Below, one piece after another: positions 4,451 through 60,000 of a DNA stretch of 60,000 bases. Made by a program: the position numbers and the translations under genes. Each line of letters begins with the position of its first letter. Position 1 is the stretch's first letter. The notes beneath the pieces were generated by a model. That model did not search any database. It was not told the origin of the DNA and saw nothing but the letters and a program-made list of their open reading frames with translations. The stretch comes from Bolinopsis microptera (Eukaryota > Ctenophora > Tentaculata > Lobata > Bolinopsidae), in contig NC_087075.1 of NCBI RefSeq assembly GCF_026151205.1, positions 4,192,359 through 4,252,358 on the forward strand, given 5' to 3'.

Positions 4451-4459
4451 ATCAACATT

Positions 4460-6870: not shown

Positions 6871-6879
6871 ATTATGTAA

Positions 6880-12990: not shown

Positions 12991-13279
12991 AAAATATGCC
13001 TCACAAAATTTGTTTTCAAATTTTTGAACTAAGTTTGCATTTTCAGAATAAAACAAATATTCAGAATAAAACAAATATTATATTCAAATCTCTTTATTCA
13101 ACAATATTAAATCATTATAGAACCTAATTTGTGGCTTGATCGTTATGTTAGGGCTATTCTGTTAGCTGATGCTGACAGGCACTGCATGGGGCAGAGACTT
13201 AGGACCATTACGCTGGAGGCTTACAATGACCCTTTTTGAACCCCATGGCAGTGCTAGTTTTATTATGGTACAAATTGTA

Positions 13280-15335: not shown

Positions 15336-15639
15336 GTTAATTAACTAAGCTTAATCATATGAGTAAACCACGGTGTTATTGCAAAGAACCATGACAAGGG
15401 TATCAGACCTATATATTAATCTAAGAGACGAAACAAAACGAATCATCATACAACAAATTTTAAAATCCTGCGGCACAGGATCCTGTTGTTTTCCTACTCT
15501 GCCTCTCCCAAACCCCTCTCCTTCCCCTTTCTTCAGGTTTATTCTTCAATTTTTTAAATTAGATAGCAGATATATTTTCTTTCGAATTAGTAATGGCATT
15601 ATACATTATTTGGTATCGTATGTATGTTGTGTTTAGTGT

Positions 15640-18993: not shown

Positions 18994-19140
18994 CAGTATG
19001 ACAGAAGATGTTTAAAGAATAGTACTCATCAAACAAAACGAACATTGTTCAATATAGGAAGAAAAAAAATGCTAAAATAGCTAAATGCCTCACAAAATGG
19101 CTAAAATATGCCTCACAAAATGGCCAAAATTTAAAACTCC
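18978..19140. repeat. Second copy of the 12.86-kb dispersed repeat
   Basis: GGTGAGAACTTCTGGCACCA through AGGAAGAAAAAAAATGCTAAAA matches 12862-12967 with one or two differences and abuts the 5' end of the minus-strand LINE. It is followed by two GCCTCACAAAATGGC motifs. Confidence 0.85.
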
Positions 19141-19208
19141 TTTTATTCAATGAAACAATCTTACTATATATAAAGCGAGACGATATATATATATATATAT
19201 TTATTTAA

Positions 19209-21332
19209 TTCGAACAATTGAAACAAATCAAATTGGCGGGCAAACGATCCGTTTCATGATATGTATAAAAACAATACCAATCATCAGTGCCAAATAGAAT
19301 AATGAATTGTAGCGCTATGACATGTCGCTCCTTTATGAAATAATTTTTATTGATCATGAAACATTTTCAAAATGATCAAAATTTACAAAATTTCCAAAAA
19401 ACAGTTTAATTGTGTCCGTCCCAATTTTAAAATTGTCTATGAAGTAAGGTAGAAAGATATCTTTGGCTTTTAAAGTTGTAAACTGCGTTGGCCTTCGTGT
19501 AGTGGTAGAGGAAAATTATTTACTGAGTTCCGTGAAGCTGGTAGAATTAGGATCCGTATTTGAGAGTTAATTGTTGATTCTGGTTATCAAACGAGAGTGC
19601 TCAACAACGACGAGTCGAAGGAGCATAACTAATAAATAGTTGTTGTTTGGTTTCCCAAAGAGAGTGCTCGACTGCAGTTAAGCAGGAGCATTATAATTCG
19701 AACAATTGAAACAAATCAAATTGGCGGGCAAACGATCCGTTTCATGATATGTATAAAAACAATACCAATCATCAGTGCCAAATAGAATAATGAATTGTAG
19801 CGCTATGACATGTTGCTCCTTTATGAAATAATTTTTATCGATCATGAAACATTTTCAAAATGATCAAAATTTACAAAATTTCCAAAAAACAGTTTAATTG
19901 TGTCCGTCCCAATTTTAAAATTGTCTATGAAGTAAGGTAGAAAGATATCTTTGGCTTTTAAAGTTGTAAACTGCGTTGGCCTTCGTGTAGTGGTAGAGGA
20001 AAATTATTTACTGAGTTCCGTGAAGCTGGTAGAATTAGGATCCGTATTTGAGAGTTAATTGTTGATTCTGGTTATCAAACGAGAGTGCTCAACAACGACG
20101 AGTCGAAGGAGCATAACTAATAAATAGTTGTTGTTTGGTTTCCCAAAGAGAGTGCTCAACTGCAATTATTTCATAAAGGAGCAACATGTCATAGCGCTAC
20201 AATTCATTATTCTATTTGGCACTGATGATTGGTATTGTTTTTATACATATCATGAAACGGATCGTTTGCCCACCAATTTGATTTGTTTCAATTGTTCGAA
20301 TCATAATGCTCCTGCTTAACTGCAGTCGAGCACTCTCTTTGGGAAACCAAACAACAACTATTTATTAGTTATGCTCCTTCGACTCGTCGTTGTTGAGCAC
20401 TCTCGTTTGATAACCAGAATCAACAATTAACTCTCAAATACGGATCCTAATTCTACCAGCTTCACGGAACTCAGTAAATAATTTTCCTCTACCACTACAC
20501 GAAGGCCAACGCAGTTTACAACTTTAAAAGCCAAAGATATCTTTCTACCTTACTTCATAGACAATTTTAAAATTGGGACGGACACAATTAAACTGTTTTT
20601 TGGAAATTTTGATCATTTTGAAAATGTTTCATGATCGATAAAAATTATTTCATAAAGGAGCAACATGTCATAGCGCTACAATTCATTATTCTATTTGGCA
20701 CTGATGATTGGTATTGTTTTTATACATATCATGAAACGGATCGTTTGCCCACCAATTTGATTTGTTTCAATTGTTCGAATCATAATGCTCCTGCTTAACT
20801 GCAGTCGAGCACTCTCTTTGGGAAACCAAACAACAACTATTTATTAGTTATGCTCCTTCGACTCGTCGTTGTTGAGCACTCTCGTTTGATAACCAGAATC
20901 AACAATTAACTCTCAAATACGGATCCTAATTCTACCAGCTTCACGGAACTCAGTAAATAATTTTCCTCTACCACTACACGAAGGCCAACGCAGTTTACAA
21001 CTTTAAAAGCCAAAGATATCTTTCTACCTTACTTCATAGACAATTTTAAAATTGGGACGGACACAATTAAACTGTTTTTTGGAAATTTTGTAAATTTTGA
21101 TCATTTTGAAAATGTTTCATGATCGATAAAAATTATTTCATAAAGGAGCAACATGTCATAGCGCTACAATTCATTATTCTATTTGGCACTGATGATTGGT
21201 ATTGTTTTTATACATATCATGAAACGGATCGTTTGCCCACCAATTTGATTTGTTTCAATTGTTCGAATTATAATGCTCCTGCTTAACTGCAGTCGAGCAC
21301 TCTCTTTGGGAAACCAAACAACAACTATTTAT
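19209..21332. repeat. 488-bp unit: two direct then about 2.4 inverted copies
   Basis: The unit starts TTCGAACAATTGAAACAAATC and ends GTTAAGCAGGAGCATTATAA. Copies 1 (19209) and 2 (19697) are direct and nearly identical. At about 20164 the orientation flips in mid-unit, and reversed copies follow in tandem to about 21332. One reversed copy lacks 11 bp (near 20608). The unit contains GTGTAGTGGTAGAGG, which resembles a tRNA D-arm/A-box, and paired GAGAGTGCTC...GAGCAT blocks near its end. Open frames in it are accidental. Confidence 0.93.
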
Positions 21333-21339
21333 TATATAT

Positions 21340-43253: not shown

Positions 43254-46200
43254 CTGAAAATTAATGTAAGATGCATTAATTTAAGTGATGTATTTATTAT
43301 CAACGTCATTAGAACTTTAGAATTCAGGTGTAACTCTAATGATCATAGTTTGCTTTTATGGTCCGTAGCACCAGACGACGTTTAAATTCACAGAGAGAAT
43401 CGTAATCAGTTTTACTTTTTCAATGGAATGAAGTAGTAGAAGTATCCCCCAAAACATCGAACAAAATCCAAACGAAATAAAATTGGAGTTTTCATGTGAA
43501 ATCCCGGCTACTCCAGCAGTCAATCCACACAGAAATAAGAAAACAGGGAATAAATTAAGCCAAACATCATGCTTTTTGTGTAAAGAAGTTGTCTGTTCAG
43601 TCTTTTGGTCAGCCTGAAGAATAATCATGTACTGTTTCATGAACTGCTGTTACAGGAATTATAATTGCTGCAACTGCAAAAGAAATGTGCTAGGAACTGA
43701 AAAAAAAAACAACAGAAAACTACGAAAACAAAATGCATGCCATTCATTTAATAAGATCATGGCTTTTAATTATACAATTGTTTAAAAAACAAAATCAGAA
43801 GCTGATCAAATAGTTAATTATTTTGGCAGCTTACCAGTTTTCTCCCAGTTCTTCCCTTAGGGGAAGCGTAAAGTTCTAAACCAAATACCATTAGTCCAAT
43901 AATGAACAAGGGGATCGAGATAATTAAGATACCTGAAAAAATTGTTACGTGAATTGGGAACACTTTACAAATAAAAGGATTGAATTTGTCATTGTAGTGT
44001 GTGTCACAGTAGTGTATGTCACAGTAGTAGTGTCACAGTAGTAGTGTCACAGTAGTAGTGTCACAGTAGTAGTGTCACAGTAGTAGTGTCACAGTGAGGG
44101 TCACAAATACGATATTTGTGGTACAAGTAGCCCCTAGAAAGCTAGAAACAGTACCTAGTAAGGAAACAACCTCCAAACTATCAGCCTCAGCATCAAACTC
44201 ACTGTCTTCGTCACATGATCCTGTGATATATCTTTAAAGTTGACTTAACTATAATATGTGATATATTTAAATTAGGCTTTAAAGATATTATACATTTTTC
44301 ATGAATTGTGTTTTTGAAGTTTAAATACAATGTTAATGCTTTGATGTAAAGGTTAATTATTAACTAGAGAAAATTATTTAAACTGATTAAACGGATTTTC
44401 TTTGATTTGGGATTTGTCATACGTTATGACGTATGACAGTGTTTGTAGCGGTTTTTCTCTTTCAAATATTTGACCTAGCTAGGCCCAGGCTAGAGACCAA
44501 GCTTGCATGTTGCCGTGCTTTTCATAAGGTTACCTTGACCGGCGTGATAATGCGCCTTCTAAATGATCTCTTATTACTTTAAATAATCATTGTCTGTTTT
44601 TTTTTTTGTTTTTTTTTTGTCGATGGGCGCTCACTCTACCTCCCCGGGTTTGCGGGGAGGCTACGTCCGCCTTGTGGCTAACGTCTCTTGGAGCTCCTTT
44701 GGTTGCGGAGGTGTACCGAAAGCTCGGCTGGGATGGGGACTCGCTGAGCAGGCACGAACCAAATGGACATAACATTGCTGTTATGACCCGGTGGAACGGC
44801 GATACCCCTAAAAGTATCTGCCATATGTTCCGTCATCGGGGGACTTTCTGTCATTGTCTGTGCTCGAACTAGCTTTTTATCTTTAATTAAAACAAATTCT
44901 TCATAATATCATGGAGCCTGCATAGTGTGGACATGATAAATATTCACCTTGTAACAAGAATCGTATGTCATCCTGATAGTGATACTATCAAAATGACATA
45001 CAATTCCTATTTGATATTGAATGCAAAGCACATCATAATACCTTCAACAAAGTAGTTCCACAGATCCTTAATGACACCCTTTTCCTGCATTACCAGCATC
45101 TCCCTGTTGAATGATTCCAAGTAGGGAGAATCTATCTGGAAAGCGAATGCATATCCAAAATGCACTAACACCTGAAGGGGGTATTTGAAACAAACTAATT
45201 ACAACACTACAAATCTATTATATTTATTGAGAAATATGTAATGTAACGTGATGGAAATATTTTAAACAGGCATATCCTGTCCAAGCCCAGGATGGACTAC
45301 ATGAAGAGTTCGTTGTAACTTAATGTTTGAAAAGCATTAATATAAAGATATAAAGATATGAATCATACAAAAGGTTTGATTAGCAGGACTCAGGAGTCAG
45401 AGCTTTCAAAATACATGTGTCGTCTAGAGCTGGGAATAATGGGGCGAAGAATTATAAAGCGAAGGAGGTGGAAAAGTTTAATATTTTATACAGTACCTCT
45501 CCTATAAGCTGGATATCACAGAACTCCGTGGATGAGGTGTACTCTAGTGGTCCAGCACCGTACATGAATATGTATTTGTTCTCTCGCATTCGCCTCACTG
45601 CATCTGTGAACGAGTCACTTTGGTTGGTCCGCTTGAAGACACTTTGCATCAGAGGGCTCTGTGTGATAAATAGTAATTTTAATGATGCATCTGTGATTAT
45701 TGGAATCTCATTGAAAAGCCTCGTCTACGATCGTTTATGTAAGTGATTAATTTTCGATTACATTACTTTTTGCATATTATGATGCAGTGAAACTATCGGA
45801 CTGCGATGAATATGTGTTATTTTTAAATTTTGATTTTAATATATAACTGAGATGATAGACGGAGATGATCACTGATAGCATTGCTTTTCTACCACTACTA
45901 GTACGCATATAAAGCTTTCAAGTTCATTTAAATATCGAATTGAACTGTTTCACCCTCATTTTTATTGTAATAAATGGCATAAAATTGAAATATTTGTTTG
46001 GCTGAAATGTTGTCTGACTGAAATGTTGTCTGACTGAAATGTTGTCTGACTGAAATGTTGTCTGATTGAAATTTTGTCTGACTGAAATTTTGTCTGACTG
46101 AAATGTTGTCTGACTGAAATGTTGTCTGACTGAAATGTTGTCTGACTGAAATTTTGTCTGACTGAAATTTTGTTTGGCTGAAATGTTGTTTGACTGAAAT

Positions 46201-49200
46201 GTTGTTTGACTGAAATTTTGTCTGACTGAAATGTTGTTTGACTGAAATGTTGTTTGACTGAAATGTTGTTTGACTGAAATATTGTCTGACTGAAATGTTG
46301 TTTGACTGAAATTTTGTTTGACTGAAATGTTGTTTGACTGAAATGTTGTTTGACTGAAATGTTGTTTGACTGAAATGTTGTTTGACTGAAATGTTGTTTG
46401 ACTGAAATGTTGTTTGACTGGAATTTTGTTTGACTGAAATTTTTTTGACTGAAATGTTGTTTGACTGAAATGTTGTTTGACTGAAATGTTGTTTGACTGA
46501 AATGTTGTTTGACTAAAATGTTGTTTGACTGAAATGTTGTTTGACTGAAATGTTGTTTGACTGAAATTTTGTTTGACTGAAATGTTGTTTGACTGAAATT
46601 TTGTTTGACTGAAATGTTGTTTGACTGAAATGTTGTTTGACTGAAATATTGTTTGACTGAAATGTTGTTTGACTGAAATGTTGTTTGACTGAAATGTTGT
46701 TTGACTGAAATTTTGTTTGACTGAAATATTGTTTGACTGAAATGTTGTTTGACTGAAATGTTGTTTGACTGAAATGTTGTTTGACTGAAATGTTGTTTGA
46801 CTGAAATGTTGTCTGACTGAAATGTTGTTTGACTGAAATGTTGTTTGACTGAAATGTTGTTTGACTGAAATTTTGTTTGACTGAAATGTTGTTTGACTGA
46901 AATTTTGTTTGACTGAAATGTTGTTTGACTGAAATGTTGTTTGACTGAAATTTTGTTTGACTGAAATGTTGTTTGACTGAAATTTTGTTTGACTGAAATG
47001 TTGTTTGACTGAAATGTTGTTTGACTGAAATATTGTTTGACTGAAATGTTGTTTGACTGAAATGTTGTTTGACTGAAATGTTGTTTGACTGAAATTTTGT
47101 TTGACTGAAATATTGTTTGACTGAAATGTTGTTTGACTGAAATGTTGTTTGACTGAAATGTTGTTTGACTGAAATGTTGTTTGACTGAAATGTTGTCTGA
47201 CTGAAATGTTGTTTGACTGAAATGTTGTTTGACTGAAATGTTGTTTGACTGAAATTTTGTTTGACTGAAATGTTGTTTGACTGAAATTTTGTTTGACTGA
47301 AATGTTGTTTGACTGAAATTTTGTTTGACTGAAATGTTGTTTGACTGAAATGTTGTTTGACTGAAATGTTGTTTGACTGAAATTTTGTTTGACTGAAATT
47401 TTGTTTGACTGAAATGTTGTTTGACTGAAATGTTGTTTGACTGAAATGTTGTTTGACTGAAATGTTGTTTGACTGAAATGTTGGCTCACATCACTATGTC
47501 GGAGGAGGTTTTCTGTGACAGTCCCTTCCACAGTTCCGAACAAGTACTCCTTCTGGCTCAGCAGATCCTCCACTCCGTTTATATCAACACTCATCCTGGA
47601 TACTTACACAACAGTTATTTGGTGGATTCTTGCAGTGTTATTGAGTCTCATGATTTATTTCCATTCGAATCTGTCTTCACTGAGTTTATTCAGAAACAAT
47701 CAGAAATTTGAATGAAAGAAACAACAGTTATTCTTTTAGAAAAATTTCTGATTTTTTTATGAATAGACTCAGCGATGACAATTTTCTAATGAAGGTAAAT
47801 AAATAAATCACGTATCGAAATTTCTACGTTATATTCAAGACAGTATCAATTTACACTTTGTTAAGACGTTTTCGTTATTATTATAAAACATTTGGCATAA
47901 AATTGATAACTTGTTTTTACTTATAACTTTGTTTTACTGGTAACATTGTTTTACTGGTAACTTTGTTTTATCTTAGTCAAGCACTTTGTCGGAAGAGGAC
48001 CTCACAGATCAGTATTTAGTTAATTAAAAAGTTTTCCCTAAGCAAGGAAGATCATAATTGTATTTTAGGTGTTACATTTTATTTTAGTATGTAAATTTTT
48101 ATGTTTGCATATCGAAATGTTTACTAGAGTGTTGAAATATACATGGTAAAGACTGTGTTTGATAAACTAACCTGTAAGAAAGGCTGCCAAGTTAGCAGTG
48201 TACATACTAACGAGAACCAAGCAGATGACCCACCAAACACTGATAACTATACGACCGGACCTGAGCATCGAGTAATTATATATATGGTGAGTTGAAAATA
48301 ATATGTGGATTATGGCTCTAATTTATGAAATAAATTAATAAAAAATCACTCCATTTTTGCATATTTAGGTCAGATCACCCGACCTGAGTAATATTTCAAA
48401 ATTTACTCCTGCATAAAAATTTGTATCGTCCTGTTTCAAAATACGTCTCTTAAAAGGATTGTTAGATTGTGTAATTGACGTATTTCTCCTCTTATTGCTT
48501 ACGTACTCACTATCAGTCAGCAGTCAATTTGTAGTATGGCTGGCATGAAAAATTACCTTAAATTGCCTTTCTCTTTAATTTTTCCAATATTAAAGTATAA
48601 AATTGGCAATTCCGTTTTACTGACCAGTTTTTGGGAACCCCGTCTGCGGGTGCGTATGTCAGGAAGGAACACACTGATAACCAGAACGCATTAGGCAGAC
48701 TCATTATCCCTGAAGTGATACTGAAGTTGGAAACGCAAATTGCGCTTTCAAAAAGTGACTCTCAAATTTTACATTTACTTTTCCTTAAAAAATGTGTGCA
48801 AACAAAGTCGATACTGGAGTTTTGAAATTTTGTTAATTTTAACAGTTTGTTACCCATTCGATGTTTGAGGTCATGGTCTTCGTTGAACGGGCAAAGATGG
48901 TCTCTGAACCCCCCTCTCTTCATGAGTTTGGTACATTCCTCACATTTACACAGTTTACATTTAAACCTAACCCCTCCAGCATGCCCGTAGGGGCTGTACC
49001 TGTCCAGGAAGTAGATGGCAAGAAAGAAAACTATCATCCCAATCAATATCGCAGCCCTGAAAATTTCAATTGAAGTATTCTGAGGAAGGCATATTATATT
49101 AGTACTGGTTTTAATTCTGTAAGTCTATTGATACAATACTTGAAACTTTAAGAGATCAAATTTTCTCAAATTAGCTTTAAGTGAAATAACATTAAACATA

Positions 49201-52200
49201 CCAAACACCACTGGAGAACGGTCTGAGAAAGAAGAAGTACTCTTTAGATGCAGCATCCTTCTGGGTGGCCATTCTTACTCCTCCGGGAAGGAAAGATATC
49301 CCAAAATCAACTACCCTCTCACGACCGTGAGATGTGCCGAACCCTACCACACCTATGTCTATGTTCTGAAATCAACCAATCTGAACACAGTATTCACATG
49401 GCACGTGACACAAACCAACCAATCAGAACACAGTCTGGTTATTATTTAGTCATTATCTGGTAATTAATTAAATTACTTATTATTTGGTAATTAATTACTA
49501 ATTATCCGGTAATTATCTGGTAATTATAATCCCCCTTTTCTTACCTGCTGATAAACCTGGTTGATCAGGCCATTCCATACTCCATTCACTTCACTTCCGA
49601 ACTTCCCATCTGGTGACTCAACGAACTCATACTCAAACTTCAGCCTCTTTTGGAGGCGTTTTATTATTTCTATACTCACTCCAGTGTAACACCAATTTCT
49701 GTTTGGCATATCTGCAAAATAATGAAATGATATCTGATGTAAATCGATAAAAATAACTTTAACAGTTTAACTTACAATTACCGGATATAAGGTTAGTAGG
49801 TGTATAGCAGGTGAATTAAGAACCGTTTTATATCTTACCGAACTTTATTCAAACGGACATTAATTGAACGCTGGAGGCCCTATAGAGTTCATTGTAATGT
49901 CTGTTCAAAATTATGTCTGTTCAGTGTTCACGCCATTTCTGGTAAAATAACGTTCGATAAGGTAAAAATAGGAAAGTACAATCATTAATTGCAAAGCCTC
50001 TGACCTGCACAATTGTCATACCCCTGCGCTGTGTAGTTGTATATGATAAAGGGTTTATCCTCCAGAATACCCAGTTTCAAAGTGGAGCTCTCTAACTCCG
50101 GGTCATCAGCAGGAACCTCACTTCCACCACTATTCCAGAGTGGCTCACTTGTTAGCGTTACTTTAGGTCTGTTCTTCGGCTCCCACACTCCTACCTACTC
50201 AATATTAACAAATTATGAGATACGTATCCTACCTTTTTTTGTTGATTAATGAGTTAATTGTTTGAATTATTTTCTTTTGAAACTTCAGCTTGGATCTTAC
50301 AACATGTGTTAAATTGCAAAAATCTTTCTAACTTCTACCTATAACGGGTGATGACTAAAAAATGGGACTTTTTTCAAGGGTCTTTTTAGTGTCGATAAAA
50401 CTATTTTTGGTTCAAACCAATGAAACAGCGTTGTAAAACGGGCAATTTTGAACGAGTATGGTCAATGACAAGCGCCCATGAGCCCATTTTGATTGGTTCA
50501 GGAGGGCTTCTTTCATCAAGCTCAAAAATCCGTCTGTACAGTTGGGCCTAAAATCGTGTTGGCGCAGTCTCTTCTTTTGTGCCCTAAGGCCCATGTATGC
50601 TTGTAAGCCATATTCCGGGCATGTACATGTGTTGCCAGGACTCTAAAGAAGTCCTCTATGGGTTGAGATTGTCAAAATTTACTTTGGTCGATAACTTTTG
50701 GGACGAAATTGGCCCTTATGGCAAATAAAGATGTGGTTTTCCCAGAAAAATACGATCTAGCCCCATCCTAACGAACCACCTTCCACCCTTTGGGGATATT
50801 TTCTTGTAGGAACAACACCTGGCAAGGCTTCAAGCACTTTGATTTTTACGTGGTACCATTATAAACCATGCTAAAGCCGATAGTTGACCTAGCCTCGATC
50901 TTTCACACGGTAAAATTTTACCCCTCAGGTGGTTTTGAGCTCAAATATCTTCTTACTGGTTTTAGCTACGCTGATGGGTGTTGAACCCTCGTCTTAAGCA
51001 TAACATTCGGCATACTCTCTGCTAAATATTTTTCGGTATGGAAGCTTTAACTACCTGTGAGGCGACTTCTGTGAACAGAGCTTTACTGTAAAGTTTTTAT
51101 AGGACCCCTCCCCTAGTTCGAGACCATTATCGGGGACAAAGATCAACCAATTTCATCAAATGGGGGTGGAAACTGTTCGAGTATCGTTCAGAGTAACTGG
51201 TGGTTGTGGTAAAATATCAAAATTTTGTTCAGGTGGAATCTGAGGGCTAAAAAACATGTAGTCCCATTTTTTATTCATCACCCGTTATACATGTATATAG
51301 TACATGTATATGTATATAGTATTGAAGTTAAGTTAGCATGGACCATAGAAAATTTACCCGTGTAACGTTGTTGTCGCCCCCTCTGAAGTTGACAATGTTG
51401 TAACGCAGAGTGTCAGGGTCGGGCTGACCAGTGGGCCACATTTGTCGGTGTCCCGTTATCCCTGTATACTTCGACTGAGGACGGGAATTGGTCATACATG
51501 TATTTCATTAACTTTTCATTGTGTTTGATTCCTGATCAATGTAACTGACAATTTCAGTTTTTGTTTATAAGTACCAATTTACTGTTCTTATCAATTTTTA
51601 GCCTAACATTTAAAGATTTAACAACAAAGAAACCTTCTTTTTCTTTTTATATTTATTACTTTTGGCGAAGAATTCCAAGCAAATATCTTACCGTAGTGAA
51701 CATTCTGAACATCTGTACTCCAAGTTGCCAGTCCCTTCTTGGAGTCTCCTGATAACACTCTCCCTCAAAGTTCCGTATAATCTCACTGTTCTCCTTGTAC
51801 ACCTCATGTAGACTATTAGCTATCAGGTACACTCCGTCGTATACCAGCGCGTCTGTTGGCTGAGGGAAGCCAATTTTGTAATTGTTAAATAGTTAAAAGT
51901 TAGACAATAGTCAATACTTTATTCATTGTTTAAAGTTTGAACTAGGAATCAAATAACTTTAAGTAACCAGCGCGTCTGTTTGCTGAAGGAAGGCAATTTT
52001 CCTTTGATTTTTGAAGTGGTGTAAATAAACATCATTGGTGATGATTAACAAGTAGCTTACTGATCAACTGTTTGAATTTTGAGTAAATAACGCTAATATA
52101 ATTATATGTACTTCCCCTCGAAAGGTTCTGCTTATGACAGTAGTAATTGATTTTGAAATTACTAAAAGTTAGACAATACTTTATTCATTGTTTAAAGTTT

Positions 52201-55200
52201 GAACTCGGAATAAAATAATTAAATAATTCAGCACTAACCGTGAGAACGTTAAAACCGTTGTCCCTGTAAAGAGAGGATAGCCGTCTGTAGAACCCTCCAG
52301 TAACATCAAGATACGGTGACAGCCCCACCACCCCATCGTAGTAGGACTTCATTCTTCCTGCCTCGTTGTACGCAAATAGCTGGTGATATATTAAAATATC
52401 TATAACTCCTTTGTAGTTATAATGTAAGGATATTCATTTCTGTCGTGTGGTATCAAAATAGACACCCAAAAGTAATGTTTCATAAATTTTAGTCTTCTGC
52501 AGCTTATATATTCCACCGCCAATTGAACAACAACATCATATCAACAACAAGCAATAATTCATTGGAAAATTCATTTGGACAATACATTTGGACAATAAAT
52601 TATCATTTAACGAGATTTACTGACTGACCATTGCTTCTGAAATAGCGGTAGAAGCAATCCAAGCGTAAACACTGTCCACCATACCGTATTCCTCAGCAGC
52701 ACTGAGGATTATCTCACCGTAATCCGGTTGAGTGAGCAGTAAAGTTATCCTTGTTGTACTGTTCTGTAGTTGAGCTATCCACTGTCTGACAGATAATTAA
52801 CTCGGTCAGATGTTTGTGGCGATTTTAATAAATGTTGCTGAATTAGATGATTTTTTCAAAATGTTCATTTCGATTAACATCCTGAATGCTAAGCAAAATA
52901 AACGGGTTCTTTTGCAGTTAAAAAGTGCAAGTAGGAATTCATCTTGTGAAGGAATTTGGTGACAATATCCTGGTGAAGTAGTAGCTACTGTATTAGCTGT
53001 AGCTTAGTAATAGTAAACCCGCTGAATGAGTCGAACATTAACCTCTTAGTTCCCTCTTCCACCAGCTCTGCCACCTCGTAATCAATCTCCAGCTCTGTTA
53101 TCAGATCTAACCCTCTTTCTATAATAAGCTCTTTCACTGCTTCTGCTAGCGTCACTCCTTTTGAGGGTGAAAACAACTTTAAAGTCGGGGCTAAATCGGG
53201 GTTTTACTGTAACTAAATAACTGGAAAGTAATGTTTTAAGAAAGGACAACAACAAAAGAACAACATATGAACATACCACAGCAAGTGGAAATAAAGTAGG
53301 ACAAAATAAGATGATATTTTTGTTAATTACCGTAAGGGTCGCTAGTATAAACAACTGCTATTCGCCTCCAGTTAAAGTGCTCCAGCAGATCTAACATCGC
53401 TTCAGCTTGCTTCTGAGAAGACAGTTGATGATTTAATAACCTTTTAATATGCTATAATCAATAATGATTGGTTTTATTTTTCCAATATTTAAGTGTTATA
53501 AGTTCAGAATGTAAATGGAAAACTTACTAGAAAGCATAAAGAAATGAAACAAGAATTTCGCCGCGGTTTCAACAATTAACAAACCCGATTAATTGTTTCT
53601 CTACTATTGCCTTCGGCAATAGTAGAGAAAAATGACTATAAAGTGTATAGAAAGTGTAAGTGTAAAAACCTCGTTTGAAGGGCTGAGCCGGGCGAGGGTC
53701 CCAGCCCAGTGGGGGTTATTAAGGTTAGGGTCGGTTGCAGTGGGTGATATGATTGGCAGACCTATCTGGGGGGTTATTAAGGTTAGGGTCGGTTGCAGTT
53801 GGTGATATGATTGGCAGACCTATCTGGGGGGTTATTAAGGTTAGGGTCGGTTGCAGTGGGTGATATGATTGGTAGACCTATCTGTGAGGTTATTAAGGTT
53901 AGGGTCGGTTGCAGTGGGTGATATGATTGGTAGACCTATCTGGGGGGTTATTAAGGTTAGGGTCGGTTGCAGTGGGTGATATGATTGGCAGACCTATCTG
54001 GGAGTTATTAAGGTTAAGGTCGGTTGCAGTGGGTGATATGATTGGCAGACCTATCTGGGAGTTATTAAGGTTAGGGTCGGTTGCAGTGGGTGATATGATT
54101 GGCAGACCTATCTGTGAGGTTATTAAGGTTAGGGTCAGTTGCAGTGGGTGATATGATTGGCAGACCTATCTGGGGGGTTATTAAGGTTAGGGTCGGTTGC
54201 AGTGGGTGATATGATTGGCAGACCTATCTGGGAGTTATTAAGGTTAGGGTCGGTTGCAGTGGGTGATATGATTGGCAGACCTATCTGTGAGGTTATTAAG
54301 GTAAGGTTCGGTTGCAGTTGGTGATATGATTGGCAGACCTATCTGGGGGGTTATTAAGGTTAGGGTCGGTTGCAGTGGGTGATATGATTGGTAGACCTAT
54401 TTGTGAGGTTATTAAGGTTAGGGTCGGTTGCAGTGGGTGATATGATTGGCAGACCTATCTGGGAGTTATTAAGGTTAGGGTCGGTTGCAGTGGGTGATAT
54501 GATTGGCAGACCTATCTGGGAGTTATTAAGGTTAGGGTCGGTTGCAGTGGGTGATATGATTGGCAGACCTATCTGTGAGGTTATTAAGGTTAGGGTCGGT
54601 TGCAGTGGGTGATATGATTGGCAGACCTATCTGGGGGGTTATTAAGGTTAGGGTCGGTTGCAGTGGGTGATATGATTAATGATTGGCAGACCTATCTGGG
54701 GAGTTATTAAGGTTAGGGTCGGTTGCAGTGGGTGATATGATTGGCAGACCTATCTGGGGGGTTATTAAGGTTAGGGTCGGTTGCAGTGGGTGATATGATT
54801 GGTAGACCTATCTGGAGGTTTATTAAGGTTAGGGTCGGTTGCAGTGGGTGATATGATTGGTAGACCTATCTGGGGGGTTATTAAGGTTAGGGTCGGTTGC
54901 AGTGGGTGATATGATTGGCAGACCTATCTGGGGGGTTATTAAGGTTAGGGTCGGTTGCAGTGGGTGATATGATTGGTAGACCTATCTGGGAGGGGGTTAT
55001 TAAGTTTAGGGTCGGTTGCAGTGGGTGATATGATTGGTAGACCTATCTGGGAGGGGGTTATTAAAGTTAGGGTCGGTTGCAGTGGGTGATATGATTGGTA
55101 GACCTATCTGTGAGGTTATTAAGGTTAGGGTTGGTTGCAGTGGGTGATATGATTGGCAGACCTATCTGGGAAATTATCAGGTTATACTTATTATAATATT

Positions 55201-56519
55201 TATTTAAATGTTCATTAGCAGCATAATTGTTGATTAGAGTTATTTAGTTGAGTTAGTGTAGCGAAACTAAATAACTTATGATCTACTCTTTTTAAATAAA
55301 ACAAAAAATAACCCAGTTGTTTTTGTTCCAAAAAATAACAGACCGGATCGGTATCGGCAGTGGACGGCATGTTTGACGGCATGTTTGACGGCATGTTTGA
55401 TCTATTATACCTGATGTGACTGACCTGTCCAGCAATGTAGGAACATGACTTGGTTTGTGCGGAGGTAAAAGGTCCCACAACAGCAACCATGTCCTCCTCC
55501 CTCAACAACTTGCACACTGCAAAGTTATTATTATTTGTTATTACTCCTCCCTCAACAACCAGCACACTAGTGCAAAGTTAATATTATTCACTGAATATGG
55601 TAGAATTATTCGCTGTACAATTGTACACCTGATAATTATATTAATATACACTAATTGATAATTACACACTCTTGGCAAACCTAGAACGCAATGCACATTT
55701 TTCCGTATTTTTACTCGTATTAAATTATTATATTTGATTTCGAGTGAGGTGCCTAAATATATCAGTAGACAGAAACAAAAAGTAAAACAAAATTGTTTTT
55801 TTGCCCACTTTGGTAGGTAGCTGAGGCTGGATTATCTTTATCTGATCCAATGTTAATTGATACCTCCTCAATCACAGTCTCTGGTAATATCTGGTAAATA
55901 TAAAGATGATGAAGAAAGAATAAATAGTAATGAAAAGTCATATAAATATACTATGGCAACCGTAATTAATGTATGTGATACTGATAGCTAGTTTTTTATA
56001 TTAACTATATTATTATCTATCACAGATCCCTATAGTTATTCAAGAACCTATTGGAACAAAATAGTTCCGCCATTTGTGGGGAATGAAATTTCCGCGCCAT
56101 GATGACATCAAATAAATATAAGCATTCTGAGACGCTTTTTTCAATTCGTTAAGACTGTCTGAAATTGCGTTAAGTTAAAAATGGCTTGAAATGCTCACCT
56201 CAGAATTTTCATTTATCTCTGCAATAGCTTTTCTGAAGGCAAGTGGAGAATGGGAGGATTCATTTGTGTACAGTAATGCTGAAATTAAAATCACGTCTTC
56301 ATATCAAGAAGTAGACCTAGTTATCTGATTACGGTAAACATTAAATTTATATCGGCCTATTGATTCTTTAGGCATTGATCTAAGTTTTAGGACGAATAAT
56401 TGAGAATTTATCGCTCTTGAACACTCACCTATTTTAACATTAGGTGTGGACAGAGTAACAGGAGCGATCAAAGAAAGAACGAGAGCTTGACGGGCTTGAC
56501 GGGCGACTAGAAACAACAT
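43110..56519 (-). CDS. Ionotropic glutamate receptor subunit, complete, 24 coding exons (iGluR-A)
   Basis: Exons in transcript order occupy 56429-56519, 56199-56278, 55809-55890, 55425-55516, 53670-53765, 53331-53412, 53043-53157, 52629-52785, 52239-52379, 51692-51859, 51358-51474, 50005-50194, 49545-49711, 49202-49365, 48854-49056, 48625-48709, 48172-48260, 47490-47602, 45497-45658, 45042-45171, 44155-44220, 43835-43932, 43416-43613 and 43110-43253: 3030 nt, 1009 aa. The order is signal peptide, amino-terminal PBP1 domain (about 30-440), S1 (about 450-580), M1 (582-601), pore loop M2, M3 with YTANLAAFLT (697-706), S2 (to about 850), M4 (865-885), two extra hydrophobic segments (913-934, 941-959) and a cytoplasmic tail. 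The family forms tetrameric ligand-gated cation channels at the plasma membrane. Arg541 matches the alpha-carboxylate-binding Arg; Cys791-Cys844 match the S2 disulfide. The usual acidic residue (GluA2 E705) is Gly778, so the ligand is uncertain. Divergent partner: iGluR-B. Confidence 0.93.
43416..43613 (-). CDS. iGluR-A exon 23: two extra hydrophobic segments after M4
   Basis: Acceptor CTTCAG|GC. 66 codons with LNLFPVFLFLCGLTAGVAGI and FISFGFCSMFWGILLLLHSI, each long enough to cross the membrane. The donor AAA|GTAAAA is weak but keeps phase with the last exon. Confidence 0.8.
43835..43932 (-). CDS. iGluR-A exon 22: M4
   Basis: Acceptor TTTCAG|GT; ILIISIPLFIIGLMVFGLEL is the canonical fourth membrane helix; donor CTG|GTAAGC. 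Confidence 0.88.
43994..44098. repeat. 15-bp GTGTCACAGTAGTAG array in an iGluR-A intron
   Basis: About six to seven head-to-tail copies between exons 21 and 22, ending 57 bp below exon 21. Confidence 0.85.
44155..44220 (-). CDS. iGluR-A exon 21: acidic S2-M4 linker
   Basis: Acceptor ATCACAG|GA; SCDEDSEFDAEADSLEVVS. The Cys is the likely partner of Cys791. Confidence 0.8.
   Translation of the reverse strand, partial: DHVTKTVSLMLRLIVWRLFPY
44598..44850 (-). mobile_element. SINE-like retroelement in an iGluR-A intron
   Basis: A GC-rich 253-bp insertion between perfect 10-bp target duplications TCATTGTCTG (44588-44597 and 44851-44860). On the minus strand it ends in a hairpin (CCTCCCCG-CAAACC-CGGGGAGG) followed by a spacer and an A-rich tail. 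A GGTTCGTGCC box resembles a Pol III B box. The open frames inside it are not genes. Confidence 0.85.
45042..45171 (-). CDS. iGluR-A exon 20: S2, end of ligand-binding domain
   Basis: Acceptor CTTCAG|GT; YAFAFQIDSPYLESFNREM and GVIKDLWNYF match the GYGIATPKGS...LWNKWW region of iGluRs; donor G|GTATTA. Confidence 0.9.
45497..45658 (-). CDS. iGluR-A exon 19: S2 hinge
   Basis: Acceptor ACACAG|AG; FTDAVRRMRENKYIFMYGAG aligns with the KYAYLLEST region, with Gly where the ligand-amine-binding Glu/Asp normally sits; EFCDIQLIGE carries the conserved Cys. Confidence 0.9.
45991..47483. repeat. 16-bp tandem array, about 93 copies, filling an iGluR-A intron
   Basis: Plus-strand unit TTGACTGAAATGTTGT with a few variants (TTTT, CTGA, ATTG). 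It occupies about 80% of the intron 45659-47489 and starts only about 6 nt after the donor of exon 18. On the gene strand each unit contains TTTCAGT, which resembles a 3' splice acceptor, and the array has no stop codon in any frame. Confidence 0.95.
47490..47602 (-). CDS. iGluR-A exon 18: start of S2
   Basis: Acceptor TGTAAG|TA (chosen over the downstream CCAG because only it keeps frame); VSRMSVDINGVEDLL and YLFGTVEGTVTENLL match ERM..PI.S.EDL and YGT...S..E. Donor GAT|GTGAGC. Confidence 0.85.
48172..48260 (-). CDS. iGluR-A exon 17: M3 gate
   Basis: Acceptor GCTCAG|GT; SGRIVISVWWVICLVLVS then YTANLAAFLT, the near-invariant M3 gate motif; donor G|GTTAGT. Confidence 0.95.
48625..48709 (-). 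CDS. iGluR-A exon 16: pore loop M2
   Basis: Acceptor CTTCAG|GG; SLPNAFWLSVCSFLTYAPAD aligns with the W-x-S-x-x-x-F pore helix; Thr occupies the Q/R/N site. Donor TG|GTCAGT. Confidence 0.88.
48854..49056 (-). CDS. iGluR-A exon 15: M1 and Cys-rich M1-M2 loop
   Basis: Acceptor TTTCAG|GG; M1 is AAILIGMIVFFLAIYFLDRY followed by SPYG, as in iGluRs. Then CKLCKCEEC and RDHLCPFNEDHDLKH: five Cys and three His on the cytoplasmic side. Confidence 0.92.
49202..49365 (-). CDS. iGluR-A exon 14: S1 ligand-binding core
   Basis: Acceptor ATTTCAG|AA; GFGTSHGRERVVDFGISFLP aligns with PLTIT..RE.VIDFSKPFM; Arg541 is the ligand carboxylate-binding residue. Donor TG|GTATGT. Confidence 0.93.
49545..49711 (-). CDS. 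iGluR-A exon 13: S1
   Basis: Acceptor TTTGCAG|AT; WCYTGVSIEIIKRLQKRLKF, DGKFGSEVNGVWNGLINQV, the classic DGKYG...WNGM region. Confidence 0.93.
50005..50194 (-). CDS. iGluR-A exon 12: ATD-S1 linker and first S1 strand
   Basis: VGVWEPKNRPKVTLTSEPLW then LKLGILEDKPFIIYNY, matching L.V.T..E.PFV. Acceptor GAGTAG|GT; donor G|GTCAGA. Confidence 0.88.
50342..51287. mobile_element. About 946-bp TIR element at a TA target, in an iGluR-A intron
   Basis: Ends TAACGGGTGATGACTAAAAA (left) and ATTCATCACCCGTTA (right) are about 30-bp inverted repeats ending in AAAATGGGACT/AGTCCCATTTT, within TATA on both sides (TA duplication). There is no transposase frame, so it is a non-autonomous Tc1/mariner-like element by inference. 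It fills most of the intron between exons 11 and 12. Confidence 0.85.
51358..51474 (-). CDS. iGluR-A exon 11: end of ATD
   Basis: Acceptor CCTCAG|TC; SKYTGITGHRQMWPTGQPDP, RYNIVNFRG; donor CGG|GTAAAT. Matches the ..F.GL.G...FD..G.R....I.N. pattern. Confidence 0.9.
51692..51859 (-). CDS. iGluR-A exon 10: ATD
   Basis: Acceptor CCTCAG|CC; ALVYDGVYLIANSLHEVYKE, matching the YDA.Y..A.AL. helix of receptor ligand-binding domains; donor ACG|GTAAGA. Confidence 0.9.
52239..52379 (-). CDS. iGluR-A exon 9: ATD
   Basis: Acceptor TCACCAG|CT; GRMKSYYDGVVGLSPYLDVT, RLSSLYRDNGFN; donor ACG|GTTAGT, phase 0. Confidence 0.9.
52629..52785 (-). CDS. iGluR-A exon 8: ATD
   Basis: Acceptor CTGTCAG|A; STTRITLLLTQPDYGEIILS, VDSVYAWIAS. 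Same length (157 nt) and phase as iGluR-B exon 7. Confidence 0.93.
53043..53157 (-). CDS. iGluR-A exon 7: ATD
   Basis: Acceptor TCAAAAG|GA; VTLAEAVKELIIERGLDLIT. One codon shorter (115 nt) than iGluR-B exon 6 (118 nt); donor AG|GTTAAT. Confidence 0.9.
53331..53412 (-). CDS. iGluR-A exon 6: ATD
   Basis: Acceptor CTTCTCAG|AA; KQAEAMLDLLEHFNWRRIAV, TSDPYG; donor G|GTAATT. Together with exon 5 it equals the single 178-nt exon 5 of iGluR-B (96+82). Confidence 0.92.
53670..53765 (-). CDS. iGluR-A exon 5: source of the 58-bp minisatellite
   Basis: Acceptor CCCCCCAG|AT; IGLPIISPTATDPNLNNPHW then TLARLSPSNE, matching GLPFIGPTVSDPYLLNQHW and LARLSPSN of iGluR-B. Donor GAG|GTTTTT. The first half of the exon and its acceptor are repeated upstream about 24 more times. 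Confidence 0.9.
53712..55170. repeat. 57-61-bp minisatellite made of splice acceptor plus exon 5 start, about 25 copies
   Basis: Plus-strand unit: GGTTATTAAGGTTAGGGTCG, GTTGCAGTGGGTGATATGAT, TGG(C/T)AGACCTATCTGGGG. On the gene strand every unit reads (Y)nCAG|ATAGGTCTGCC and translates GLPIISPTATDPNLNNP. The copy nearest 53.7 kb continues into the rest of exon 5. Length varies in the poly-C part (AACTCCCAG, AACCCCCCAG, AACCTCACAG). Confidence 0.95.
55425..55516 (-). CDS. iGluR-A exon 4: ATD
   Basis: Acceptor TTTGCAG|TG; CKLLREEDMVAVVGPFTSAQ, CSYIAGQ. 92 nt, same as iGluR-B exon 4; donor CAG|GTCAGT. Confidence 0.93.
55809..55890 (-). CDS. iGluR-A exon 3: ATD
   Basis: ILPETVIEEVSINIGSDKDN, ATYQ. 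82 nt as in iGluR-B. Acceptor CCAG|AT; donor A|GTGGGC. Confidence 0.88.
56199..56278 (-). CDS. iGluR-A exon 2: ATD start
   Basis: Acceptor ATTTCAG|CA; LLYTNESSHSPLAFRKAIAE. 80 nt as in iGluR-B; donor GAG|GTGAGC. Confidence 0.9.
56429..56519 (-). CDS. iGluR-A exon 1: signal peptide
   Basis: ATG at 56519; MLFLVARQARQALVLSLIAP then TPNVKIG; donor G|GTGAGT. The end (VKI-G, phase 1) equals LKI-G of iGluR-B, which supports the start. Confidence 0.85.
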
Positions 56520-57388
56520 AGACTAATGTGATTTAACGAATATTTCAGTACAATGTAAAACTAAATTTTGAAATAATCATTTAATTGCGATTTCCTACAA
56601 TTTTTAAATTATCGGTACATTAAACCTAGTCTAAAAATACCTGATACATAAAATACCCAATACATATTTGAGCTGAGGAATCAAATTTTTGCATTTTGCT
56701 TATTGTTAACGCCTGTTTTATGAAAATATGTAAGTGCTTTTAATATCTCACTAACAATTACCAAGTTTGTCTGTTGTATGAATAACAGGCTAACTTGGTA
56801 ATTTTAGTTATCGAAGTCTGTTAGAGCTGGTACCCTAAGTTAGATGAGTAAAAATCGTAAAAATGTAAACGTATACAGAAGTACACTGTATATATCATTA
56901 ACTCACATTTAAAATTAACATATCGATCTACAGCCTGGCACCAGGGCATCAATATTGTTCCATTCAAAATCAAGTATCTGAAAATTCAAGCTATCAAAAT
57001 TAATACACTGAACAGCGTCAGCCGGTAATTCAAAAGGACATACGCACACCAAATGACCACTAATTTAAATTCCAAAACTAAAAAGAGCTGGTGGTATAAT
57101 ACAGGAGCAGTGTCTGTGTATACTACCGGCACCCAGCAATTACTTTATCCTGTCAACCACCCAGCGCTTCCTTGAAGCTCAGACTGGATTTTCTACATTT
57201 TATTAGTTTCAATTACCAGGAGAGACAGTGTGTGGTAACCAGCCTATAGGTGGGGACCGAGCGAGGTAAAGACCAATAGCAGGGGCCGGAGCGAGGTGAA
57301 GACCATCAGAAGTTGTGTGACTGCCCCAATTTGAGGTGGTTTTTGAGTTGTCTTCGTTTTGTGAGATGAGGATTTTGAGCTGATTTGA
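56520..57388. promoter_or_regulatory. Intergenic part of the shared iGluR-A/iGluR-B upstream region
   Basis: The two receptor genes are transcribed away from this region, so it must hold at least one promoter, possibly bidirectional. No clear TATA box is seen. A GGGGxCGGAGCGAGGT(G/A)AAGACC block is repeated at 57254-57274 and 57282-57303. Confidence 0.4.
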
Positions 57389-57719
57389 CCCGACTTGTTG
57401 TGTAACACACCCGACTTGTTGTGTAACACACCCGACTTGTTGTGTAACACACCCGACTTGTTGTGTAACACACCCGACTTGTTGTGTAACACACCCGACT
57501 TGTTGTGTAACACACCCGACTTGTTGTGTAACACACCCGACTTGTTGTGTAACACACCCGACTTGTTGTGTAACACACCCGACTTGTTGTGTAACACACC
57601 CGACTTGTTGTGTAACACACCCGACTTGTTGTGTAACACATCCGACTTGTTGTGTAACACACCCGACTTGTTGTGTAACACACCCGACTTGTTGTGTAAC
57701 ACACTCGACTTGTTGTGTA
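57389..57719. repeat. 21-bp tandem array, about 16 copies, touching the iGluR-B start codon
   Basis: The unit CCCGACTTGTTGTGTAACACA is almost perfect (changes only near 57651 and 57705). The inner TGTGTAACACA is an imperfect palindrome. The last copy changes GTAACAC to GTAATGT and so supplies the ATG of iGluR-B. The period is a multiple of three, so long frames in it are artefacts. Confidence 0.95.
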
Positions 57720-57798
57720 ATGTTGTGGAGGCTTTGCTTCGTGTGCTTTTGTGGTGCTTTTTTGCTCGAAGTTTCACTTTCTGAGGATCTAAAAATAG
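57720..57798 (+). CDS. iGluR-B exon 1: signal peptide
   Basis: ATG at 57720; hydrophobic, Cys-rich leader, then LSEDLKIG; donor G|GTAATT. Confidence 0.85.
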
Positions 57799-60000
57799 GT
57801 AATTTTATTTAACTACATGTATCTTCTGCTTTAGCGTCTTGAAAAATCAACAAGATATATAATTATTTTTTGTATTAGCATCATTGCCGATCACTGGCGA
57901 GTCAACTTGAAATACAATTATTTTTGATATTTCCAGCTTTGCTGTTCACTGACGAGTCGCCAAACACTGAAGTTGCTTTCAATGAAGCTATAAGAGAGAT
58001 AAACTACAATGACAAGGTGTTTTAATTAATATCTTTAAATTTACTTCTTGCACTATCGCGTCACACATCATTATTGTTTACACAATGATGAATGATGATG
58101 AGAAGGAAACGCCCCTTTGTATTCAATCAAAAGATCTGATGTTTACCAAAACATATGCAATTCATTTACATGGGCTAATTAGTATTGTGCTTATAAGGTG
58201 TCCTTTGGTATCCATAATAAAGTTATTGGAATTATAACGATTATTGATTAAAAATTTTGGACTCACAAATTCTCGTTGATGTTACGTTTCGTGATTCAAT
58301 CGTTTATACAATATTGCTTCTTTACAGATGCTTCCAGAAACAAAGATAGAGATGGTAGCAATGAGCATCGGGTCAGAAGCGGACAATCCGGCCAATTCAA
58401 CTTACAAAAGTACAACAAATTTTAAATCAAAAACAATTGAACACACGTGTTTTAATTCAAACTCTGATCATTAATTATGTAAATATTCTCATTGGTCGAT
58501 TGAAAAGTGGAAGAGAGAATCCACAATTTGTATCAACCAAATATGGTTTTGCTGAAATGTTTTCCGACCAACTGGCCTTTGAACCAACCTTCCTAACGAC
58601 CGATGTAGGCACATATATATTTAAAGTTAACTTGTTTCTGCAGTGTGCAGGTTACTGACTGAGAATGATATCGTGGCTATTGTGGGACCTTTCTCTACCC
58701 CCCATGTTCGGGAGTGCTCTTATATTGCAGGACAGGTTACTTTGTTACTCTTTTACAATGCTATACAGTCACACCTCTACATACAGGGTTCTTTGATATA
58801 CCGGGCCTCTTCTATTTCCCTTATTTTTTATCACTCTTTTGTAATGCTATATGCTTTTAGATTGGCAGTTAATTTTTCAGGAAAACATTTTATTTTTCAT
58901 CTAAAAAACCGTCTACACTTTTAATGTAGTTTATCAATTCACGAATTATAAAAAGTATGAAATATAAAAAGTATGAGTATGACTTGTTTGATGTCTAGAA
59001 TAACCCAGGTTCCCTCTCCAGATGGGTCTACCATTTATCGGTCCAACAGTATCAGACCCGTATCTCCTAAACCAACACTGGTCCCCAACTCTAGCTAGAC
59101 TCAGCCCTTCTAACAAAAAACAGGCAGAAGCTTTGGTGGACTTGGTGGAGCATTTCAAGTGGAAGAGAGTGTCTTTAATGTACAACAACGACCCTTATGG
59201 TAATCACTTGTTTCAAATAACAGTTGCAACAATGTAAATACGTTGTTTATATTGCGACGTTACCGAATCTTAGTTTTTCTCAACAAATCTCCGTTTTGAT
59301 TAAATGGTCACAAAGAAAAAGGAATATGATTCAGAAAGACAATAACAAAAAGTAAGTGTGCTTGACTTCAAAAATTTCTTTTATTCGCAAGTTGTGTGTA
59401 ACTTCAGGGTTGACACTGAGGGAGGCGATAAAAGAGGAACTCCTCAAACGAGAGCTAACAGTGATAACAGAGGTCGAGATAGAGCACAACTTGGTCAGGA
59501 GACTCATCCATCCTTCCATGTCCAAGTAAGACTCAAATAATTACATTCCCACTAGTTGTTCTGTGTAAAATGTTACACATTTTGTTGTTCATAAACTGTT
59601 TAAAGTCTGTAAAAAAATTGTTTTAAAACTGTTCAAAAACTTTGAAAAAATTGTTTTAAAATTGTTTAAAAACTGTTCAAAAATTTGTCAAAAATTGTTT
59701 TCCCCAGAGGTTGGATAGAACAGTTGATAAACTCCTCAAGCCGAATAACTCTGCTCCTGGTTCAGCCTGACTTTGCTGATATTATTTTGGAGGCTGCCTC
59801 GGAGCACAACATGATTGACAGTGTGTACGCCTGGATTGCCTCTACTGCTGTTACTCAATCTTTTGTGAGATATTTACACATTTATAATCATTTACTCAAT
59901 CTTTTTTGCATTTCAACTGCGATAGTGAAGTCCCGGCCGTATATGCACCGGTTACACTAGTGAAAGCATAAAATAGCAGAGAAATCTCTCTCTCTGCAGC
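57720..60000 (+). CDS. Ionotropic glutamate receptor subunit, 5' part (iGluR-B), runs off the window
   Basis: Exons 57720-57798, 57937-58016, 58328-58409, 58644-58735, 59022-59199, 59408-59525 and 59708-59864 (786 nt, 262 codons); the next exon should begin at 60000 after TCTCTGCAG. Signal peptide MLWRLCFVCFCGAFLL, then the amino-terminal PBP1 domain: DESPNTEVAFNEAIREINY, DIVAIVGPF, GLPFIGPTVSDPYLLNQHW, FKWKRVSLMYNNDPYG, RITLLLVQPDFADIIL, VYAWIAS. Exon lengths and phases equal iGluR-A except that exon 5 (178 nt) is unsplit and exon 6 is one codon longer. Channel-forming parts lie beyond the window. The role as a ligand-gated channel subunit is inferred from the paralogue. Confidence 0.92.
57937..58016 (+). 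CDS. iGluR-B exon 2
   Basis: Acceptor TTCCAG|CT; LLFTDESPNTEVAFNEAIRE; donor AAG|GTGTTT; 80 nt. Confidence 0.92.
58328..58409 (+). CDS. iGluR-B exon 3
   Basis: Acceptor TTTACAG|AT; MLPETKIEMVAMSIGSEADN; donor A|GTACAA; 82 nt. Confidence 0.9.
58644..58735 (+). CDS. iGluR-B exon 4
   Basis: Acceptor TTCTGCAG|TG; CRLLTENDIVAIVGPFSTPH, CSYIAGQ; donor CAG|GTTACT; 92 nt. Confidence 0.93.
59022..59199 (+). CDS. iGluR-B exon 5 (unsplit)
   Basis: Acceptor CTCTCCAG|AT; GLPFIGPTVSDPYLL, LARLSPSNKKQAEAL, NNDPYG; donor G|GTAATC; 178 nt. Homologous to exons 5 and 6 of iGluR-A. Confidence 0.93.
59408..59525 (+). CDS. iGluR-B exon 6
   Basis: Acceptor ACTTCAG|GG; LTLREAIKEELLKRELTVIT; donor AA|GTAAGA; 118 nt. 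Confidence 0.9.
59708..59864 (+). CDS. iGluR-B exon 7
   Basis: Acceptor TCCCCAG|A; WIEQLINSSSRITLLLVQPD, YAWIASTAVTQSF; donor TTT|GTGAGA; 157 nt. Confidence 0.92.

Follow-up and report, generated by a model that had tools for sequence, protein, structure and literature searches.

A 3' splice site repeated in tandem at exon 5 of an ionotropic glutamate receptor gene in the comb jelly Bolinopsis microptera

The window analysed here, a stretch of 60,000 nucleotides from Bolinopsis microptera, holds an NMDA-receptor-like ionotropic glutamate receptor (iGluR) gene, gene A, in which a 3' splice site together with the first 51 nt of exon 5 is repeated in tandem in 25 copies. We consider this array likely to be a boundary minisatellite of the "mirage" kind, grown by slippage and tolerated as the copy adjoining the remainder of the exon stays usable. 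The core of a preliminary description of this DNA, an amplified 3' splice site and exon start inside a real iGluR gene, was upheld by TRF, by parsing of the units and by the gene model.

The host gene and the border of exon 5

Gene A aligns exon by exon with its head-to-head paralogue on the plus strand, gene B, and these alignments include SMYTANLAAFLTG. The features concerned, with their basis in brackets, are:

45058..56278, minus strand: gene A, NMDA-receptor-like iGluR (Pfam; exon alignment with gene B)
55425..55516, minus strand: exon 4 of gene A, CKLLREEDMVAVVGPFTSAQTKSCSYIAGQ (gene B alignment; gene model)
53766..55424, minus strand: gene A intron 4, 1659 nt in length, of which the array makes up about 1.4 kb (splicing needed for an intact protein)
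55165..55173, minus strand: upstream edge of the array with the first acceptor, tttcccag, exon-like start at 55165 (unit parse; flank comparison)
53711..55170, minus strand: minisatellite, 25 copies of 57-65 bp, mostly 58 bp (TRF; unit parse)
53670..53765, minus strand: gene A exon 5, 96 nt in phase 0-0, with the reading IGLPIISPTATDPNLNNPHWAGTLARLSPSNE and the 25th copy as acceptor (unit parse; gene B alignment; gene model)
53331..53412, minus strand: exon 6 of gene A (homology with gene B and intronless paralogues)
51692..51859, minus strand: exon 10 of gene A, PTDALVYDG... (gene model)
57720..60000, plus strand: start of gene B, the head-to-head paralogue, which runs on past the window as locus L069 (exon alignment)

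Joined at GT-AG borders, exons E2-E16 of gene A (56278-48621) give a single stop-free reading of 655 codons via the last acceptor of the array. The end of E16 is better set at 48625 than at 48621: the join to E17, which starts at 48260, then reads PKNW/SGRIVISVWW (a slash marks the splice junction here and below). The model covers E2-E16, and the later exons (47603-47502 and 45159-45058) were placed by homology alone. Pfam returned ANF_receptor (2.3e-45) and Lig_chan-Glu_bd (2.5e-19) on this model; the channel domain PF00060 fell below the pass level on E2-E16, which stops short of M3, and was matched in the window at 48149-48262. With ANF_receptor, ligand-binding and channel domains and an intact reading, gene A is an iGluR, and the solved chains nearest to it, among the best 60 of 355, were NMDA 2A and 2B. 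The Pfam matches from the genome search also include exons within the window.

The position of exon 5 was established from its homologues. At this exon, gene B (QMGLPFIGPTVSDPYLLNQHWSPTLARLSPSNK) and gene A (QIGLPIISPTATDPNLNNPHWAGTLARLSPSNE) agree at 67% with the acceptor at the identical residue, the gene B exon starting with CAG/ATGGGTCTACC, and intronless paralogues align unbroken across exons 4-6 of gene A (for example C1:17259927-17260190, residues 1-90 of 90, 40%). Because the start of the gene B exon and the intronless paralogues agree, exon 5 is fixed at 53765-53670 with the last of the 25 acceptors; the alignment with the paralogue proposed in the preliminary description was thereby reproduced, and a residue-level match of the unit with exon 5 of related iGluRs exists in gene B, in the intronless paralogues and in the relative described below. 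The gene B intron homologous to intron 4 (58736-59021) measures 286 nt, as against 1659 nt in gene A, and exons 5 and 6 of gene A correspond to one exon of gene B (59022-59199).

A search of 5.8 billion proteins with gene A as query yielded one match among 654 candidates, P0001 (208 aa; 3 member sequences from two contigs, the longest 1575 bp), which holds exon 5 at 32 of 32 residues identical. Its eight matches in the present genome are exon 5, the array copies of exon 5 and gene B. The preliminary description had proposed looking for the array in related species: ahead of the exon, P0001 has 92 open codons in which no second copy was found, so that the array is absent there, and these codons fit neither the array nor the intron of gene A; beyond the exon 5 donor, P0001 reads on into other sequence. 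Metagenome assembly could mislead here, yet a collapsed array should still leave unit sequence before the exon. As the exon stands in P0001 without an array, the array appears not to be needed for the gene, and this comparison does not suggest a conserved device.

Several further observations concern gene A and its surroundings. Intron 5, which has no counterpart in gene B, carries a perfect hairpin at 53599-53627 (CTCTACTATTGCC TTC GGCAATAGTAGAG), whose interpretation as a repeat family was rejected given that a second copy is absent from the window. Another intron of gene A holds 93 copies of a 16-bp repeat (45994-47483) that starts approximately 7 nt past a putative donor (around 47490) and whose gene-strand unit, CATTTCAGTCAAACAA, contains TTTCAG. 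Between the head-to-head genes, a 21-bp repeat (57388-57720; 15.9 copies, 99% matches) extends as far as the ATG at 57720, the putative gene B start codon, which is followed by the signal-peptide-like MLWRLCFVCFCGAFLL. Elsewhere in the window, reverse-transcriptase ORFs (PF00078) lie within 4295-19011 (plus strand: 4295-5656, 5653-6759, 9891-10526 and 13587-15332; minus strand: 16834-19011), and a tandem unit of 479-488 bp occupies 19206-21334 (two TRF rows, 2.0 and 2.4 copies, 98-99% matches).

The array, its reading frames and its splice sites

TRF reports the array at 53711-55170 with a period of 58, 25.0 copies and a score of 2502, and unit parsing gives lengths of 58 bp (n=16), 57 bp (5), 61 bp (2) and 65 bp (1) for the 24 inner units, followed by a 25th copy of 96 nt that runs through to the exon 5 donor. 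The figure of about 25 copies in the preliminary description was right, but its range of 57-61 bp missed the one 65-bp unit; similarly, there are 24 extra copies as it had held, but only 23 AG decoys besides the real site: AG is kept at 24 of the 25 acceptors and acceptor 14 reads CAA. The unit has the form ...cag/ATAGGTCTGCC...AATAAC and spans the exon-intron boundary, combining cccag with at least 51 nt of exon 5. Among the 24 inner units, the mean pairwise identity is 0.94 with 15 identical pairs, from which it follows that the array is either young or its copies are kept alike by exchange.

In a whole-genome search (264.65 Mb, 232 contigs), at least 11 matches to the unit were obtained, a lower bound as the search skips common words, and all lie inside the array. 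A dispersed repeat or transposon was ruled out on this ground, the matches listed being in the array alone. Expansion driven by G-quadruplexes was likewise rejected, with no canonical motif on the plus strand (relaxed motifs: 2). The reading frame of the array had no counterpart in other proteins at E <= 10 among 1364 candidates, and in case of the last-unit frame there was no candidate with enough words in common.

Of all 25 acceptors, the last one (53765) alone reads open to the donor at 53669, in line with the original claim that the sole continuing copy is the one beside the donor; the remaining 24 lead to a stop after 15-70 codons. From acceptor 1 the stop follows after 32 codons, as the predicted shift of frame at the first unit boundary demanded, and the proposal that 57-bp units keep frame holds locally, but no chain of them gets to the end of the exon. 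Skipping of exon 5 (96 nt) would, judged by lengths, keep the frame and cost the amino-terminal domain 32 residues. Within the exon-derived portions of the units (24 of 25, leaving out one unit with an indel), there are 7 non-synonymous changes and 11 synonymous cells, 8 of the latter representing a single CTG/CTA variant; this is the variation expected for sequence free of coding constraint. A conserved coding repeat was accordingly rejected: the 58-bp units shift frame, 24 acceptors lead to a stop and the exon-part changes look unconstrained.

Splice-site quality was assessed using a small site model based on 26 acceptors of genes A and B, of which 4 score below zero. The 24 AG sites of the array score 5.6-9.9 bits, compared with a median of 7.0 for real sites and of -1.4 for 724 background AGs of gene A; by these scores the decoys look usable. 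Two points count against our preferred reading: the first acceptor scores slightly higher than the last (9.6 and 8.6 bits), and the upstream sequence of the last acceptor is identical to that of the decoys, with nothing there to set it apart. What distinguishes the last acceptor lies downstream: the donor, and approximately 45 nt of exon by which no decoy is followed. Since this context alone differs, the last acceptor is most likely chosen by exon definition, as general knowledge of splicing would lead one to expect. RNA structure as a mark of the last acceptor was rejected: the 231 nt surrounding this site folded no better than shuffled versions (z -0.56; 55 of 200 did equally well), the final part of exon 5 forming a local hairpin.

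Origin of the unit and arrays at other splice sites

When the flank of unit 1 (ataatttcccag) is compared with that of unit 25 (aataaccccccag), only 5 nt (cccag) agree leftwards of the acceptor, and the exon reads AATAACCCCCAC where the units read AATAACCCCCCAG or similar. As the flanks share only cccag, the 58-bp unit consists of approximately 5 nt of intron and approximately 53 nt of exon, with the junction in a C-run. Ahead of 21 of the 25 acceptors, at a distance of 17-21 nt, stands a branch-point-like CTAAC (missing at acceptors 1, 4, 16 and 21); given that the units took only some 5 nt from the intron, this motif and the C-run before acceptors 2-25 derive from coding sequence (Pro-Asn-Leu-Asn-Asn). 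The preliminary description of the unit as a pyrimidine tract followed by CAG and codons is consequently apt for acceptor and exon start, but the tract of units 2-25 is mostly of exonic origin. The first acceptor (55165..55173) is probably the ancestral intron end.

From this we propose that the first duplication had its junction in a C-run present both at the end of the intron (cccag) and within the exon (AACCCCCAC), by which approximately 5 nt of intron would have been joined to approximately 53 nt of exon 5. By chance, the duplicated stretch would have held the branch-point-like CTAAC and a C-run, so that nearly every new copy, and with them the one now serving the real exon, would amount to a small 3' splice site complete in itself. 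The tandem duplication of the intron-exon boundary may then have grown via slippage or unequal exchange. The gene would work on: exon definition could choose the copy beside the rest of exon 5, because this copy is in frame and nearest to the exon's donor, and use of any other copy would lead to a premature stop and presumably to mRNA decay. An effect of array length, if any, would most likely be a shifted share of unproductive or exon-5-skipped mRNA and hence a side effect, by analogy with the human ABCA7 repeat discussed below. An array growing across an acceptor should leave a working acceptor preceded by unit sequence; if only units with their own branch point and AG leave a working gene, such arrays would be the ones seen, and this filter may account for the common make-up of the arrays.

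Duplicated boundaries recur in gene A itself:

55547..55588, minus strand: second copy of the exon 4 acceptor and exon start, decoy start at 55566, 50 nt upstream of the true one, with identity in 36 of 42 alignment columns; stop after 8 codons
51963..52000, minus strand: second copy of the exon 10 acceptor and exon start, decoy start at 51982, 123 nt upstream of the true one, with identity in 35 of 39 alignment columns; stop after 7 codons

A scan of gene A outside masked arrays for duplicates was positive at 17 of 915 positions. These fall entirely into three pairs, and an acceptor is spanned by two of the pairs. Boundary-spanning copies were found at 2 of 14 acceptors in gene A and 0 of 12 in gene B (the test omitted exon 5 of gene A, two motifs and one non-acceptor of gene B, and the gene B pore exon, which was identified later), and at no donor (0 of 15 in gene A, listed without that of exon 7; 0 of 13 in gene B, one with an intron-only copy). 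Local duplicates are common in the window, as 145 of 2136 positions were positive in 1-44000; with this and the few boundaries sampled, an enrichment at acceptors is suggestive only.

Arrays of this kind lie at splice sites in four iGluR genes, namely gene A, gene B and those at loci L061 and L064. These further cases had escaped the preliminary description, as had the second copies at exons 4 and 10 of gene A and the fact that the kind is already on record from amphioxus. In case of L061, at least 31 copies (a minimum, since the array reaches the end of the locus) spaced 52 or 54 bp consist of a 3' splice site and the start of the pore-loop exon (FVLQGTDTLPT); AG is present in 31 of 31, and only the last copy combines the correct frame with an absence of stops as far as FLLFIWW; the 30th has no stop but is out of frame. 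At L064, it is an exon end with its donor (RIHKNIETVGDLLQ, TCAG/GTAAG, 15 exact) that is repeated in approximately 28 copies of 54 bp, the first of which adjoins the exon. The repeated stretches at both loci are exon sequence, as intronless paralogues align over them (at L061 over GLVGQGTAALPASPSGRFLLFIWW, at L064 as far as DLL). The array of gene B (22.1 copies of 32 bp; L069:3324-4035) ends at the inferred acceptor of the pore exon and is without an exon part, so that gene B stands beside gene A exon 5 and L061 among the 3' boundaries as an abutting case only; L064 represents a 5' boundary.

Among the 60 loci L009-L068 returned by the search, of which many are intronless matches, a tandem-repeat survey (at least 2.5 copies, period of at least 10) found repeats in 14, and in 2 of these, L061 and L064, the repeat overlaps the end of the exon match. 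In three further intron-bearing iGluR stretches (L073, L074 and L075+L076; 33.7 kb), no boundary-spanning array was found by scanning, which counts against our preferred reading; at L074, an 11-bp array ends slightly before an acceptor, within the intron. A comparable, solely intronic array occurs in a voltage-gated-channel-like gene (L077 reversed, 924-1220), where 27 units of 11 bp, each with YTAAC, end 5 nt before the inferred acceptor. We make no claim that iGluRs are special for such arrays, the sample being small and built around iGluRs. Two aspects of these genes were noted in passing: several look intronless (for example L010, L013 and L018, each with one open frame of approximately 900-990 aa that matches ANF_receptor and Lig_chan) and others are intron-rich, and in L075+L076 (reversed, on C10) the M3 pore exon occurs twice in tandem, in two versions (13492-13581 and 13966-14055) that are possibly alternative exons.

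Known systems and alternative readings

The closest likeness is to the amphioxus mirages, in which the unit is described as comprising an intron end and exon start (BflGb6) or the 3' boundary of an exon (BflGb9), with 6 and 3 units in two haplotypes of BflGb6 (PMC3087553). According to these accounts, many units keep AG/GT and show length instability, units range from 10-72 bp (Adh3) to 150-160 bp, and several genes of the genome are affected (PMC3087553, PMC3902484); PGBD5 and TnC are named there as similar. The array of gene A equally spans a boundary, keeps AG in many copies and is accompanied by others in several genes. It differs in the phylum, in copy number (25, and at least 31 at L061, versus 6 and 3 in BflGb6) and in a unit with only about 5 nt of intron, whose branch-point-like motif and C-run are exon-derived; moreover, the present arrays were found in iGluR genes, where the search was directed. 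Boundary internal tandem repeats, on average four units of 30 bp, are also reported from human segmental duplications (PMC2812944), and boundary minisatellites can create or move introns (PMC2812944, PMC2891723); compared with these repeats and with proto-splice-site gain, the array of gene A comes without an evident new intron. Our literature search, by title and abstract start and with incomplete coverage, found no paper on a boundary minisatellite in a ctenophore: to the extent of this search, the kind is already described but the phylum is new to it.

Among the alternatives is the length-variable splicing regulator suggested in the preliminary description: the array could have been kept because the number of copies determines which fraction of the receptor mRNA is productive, tuning a neural receptor between individuals or cells. 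This would suit the finding that all 24 alternative acceptors are unproductive, that the 23 AG decoys score 5.6-9.9 bits against 8.6 bits for the real site in the simple model, and that in four iGluR genes a splice site is in contact with such an array. A precedent is the intron-18 VNTR of human ABCA7, a 25-bp unit starting with a donor dinucleotide and present in approximately 12 to 427 units, the length of which is reported to correlate with splicing: skipping of the next exon grows, not retention of repeat units (PMC5954066). The array at L064, on the donor side, would work similarly, whereas that of gene A lies on the acceptor side and includes an exon part, which the available account of ABCA7 does not describe; by analogy, exon 5 skipping would be the isoform to expect in gene A. 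However, in the same account, events using the repeat's own donor were unchanged with length (PMC5954066), RT-PCR suggests regular splicing undisturbed by the copies in amphioxus (PMC3087553), the unit variation looks unconstrained and the P0001 exon does without an array. Regulation of gene A by array length is possible, but as the reason for which the array is kept we judge it unlikely. We give slightly less credence still to the broader proposition that iGluR splice sites repeatedly seed long minisatellites and that a fast-changing number of decoys between individuals or cells sets the yield of intact receptor.

It is very unlikely that the decoys win and that gene A, yielding mostly a truncated product, drifts towards a pseudogene: with upstream sequence identical to that of the decoys, the last acceptor has nothing in its favour on that side, and three acceptors of gene A bear unproductive duplicates, but E2-E16 remain open with GT-AG borders and exon 5 is identical in the relative. 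Least probable is that the copies are recruited as mini-exons or that the array becomes fixed as a new piece of intron, along the lines put forward for amphioxus and in the proto-splice-site model. For although the units also hold AG/GT (ATAG/GTCT), introns have been proposed to arise by tandem duplication (PMC3087553, PMC2891723) and exons 5 and 6 of gene A are separated by an intron absent from gene B, the AG/GTCT looks by eye a weak donor, most units shift frame, none was seen among them with usable flanking acceptor and donor that keep frame, and the exon 5/6 intron is without an array and probably not tied to it, since P0001 also reads past the exon 5 donor.

A slippage-grown boundary minisatellite thus remains our preferred reading, and it extends such minisatellites from amphioxus to a comb jelly, with copy numbers far above the globin examples and with several cases in one receptor family. 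The array provides a natural test of how the spliceosome chooses among 25 near-identical acceptors that differ only in their downstream context, and of whether coding sequence is able to serve as branch point and pyrimidine tract. It is also a warning to annotators, as exons bordered by such arrays are easily mis-called. If array lengths vary, receptor output may differ between individuals; and if copy number did set the share of productive mRNA, these genes would possess a hypervariable control of neural receptors built from copied splice sites.
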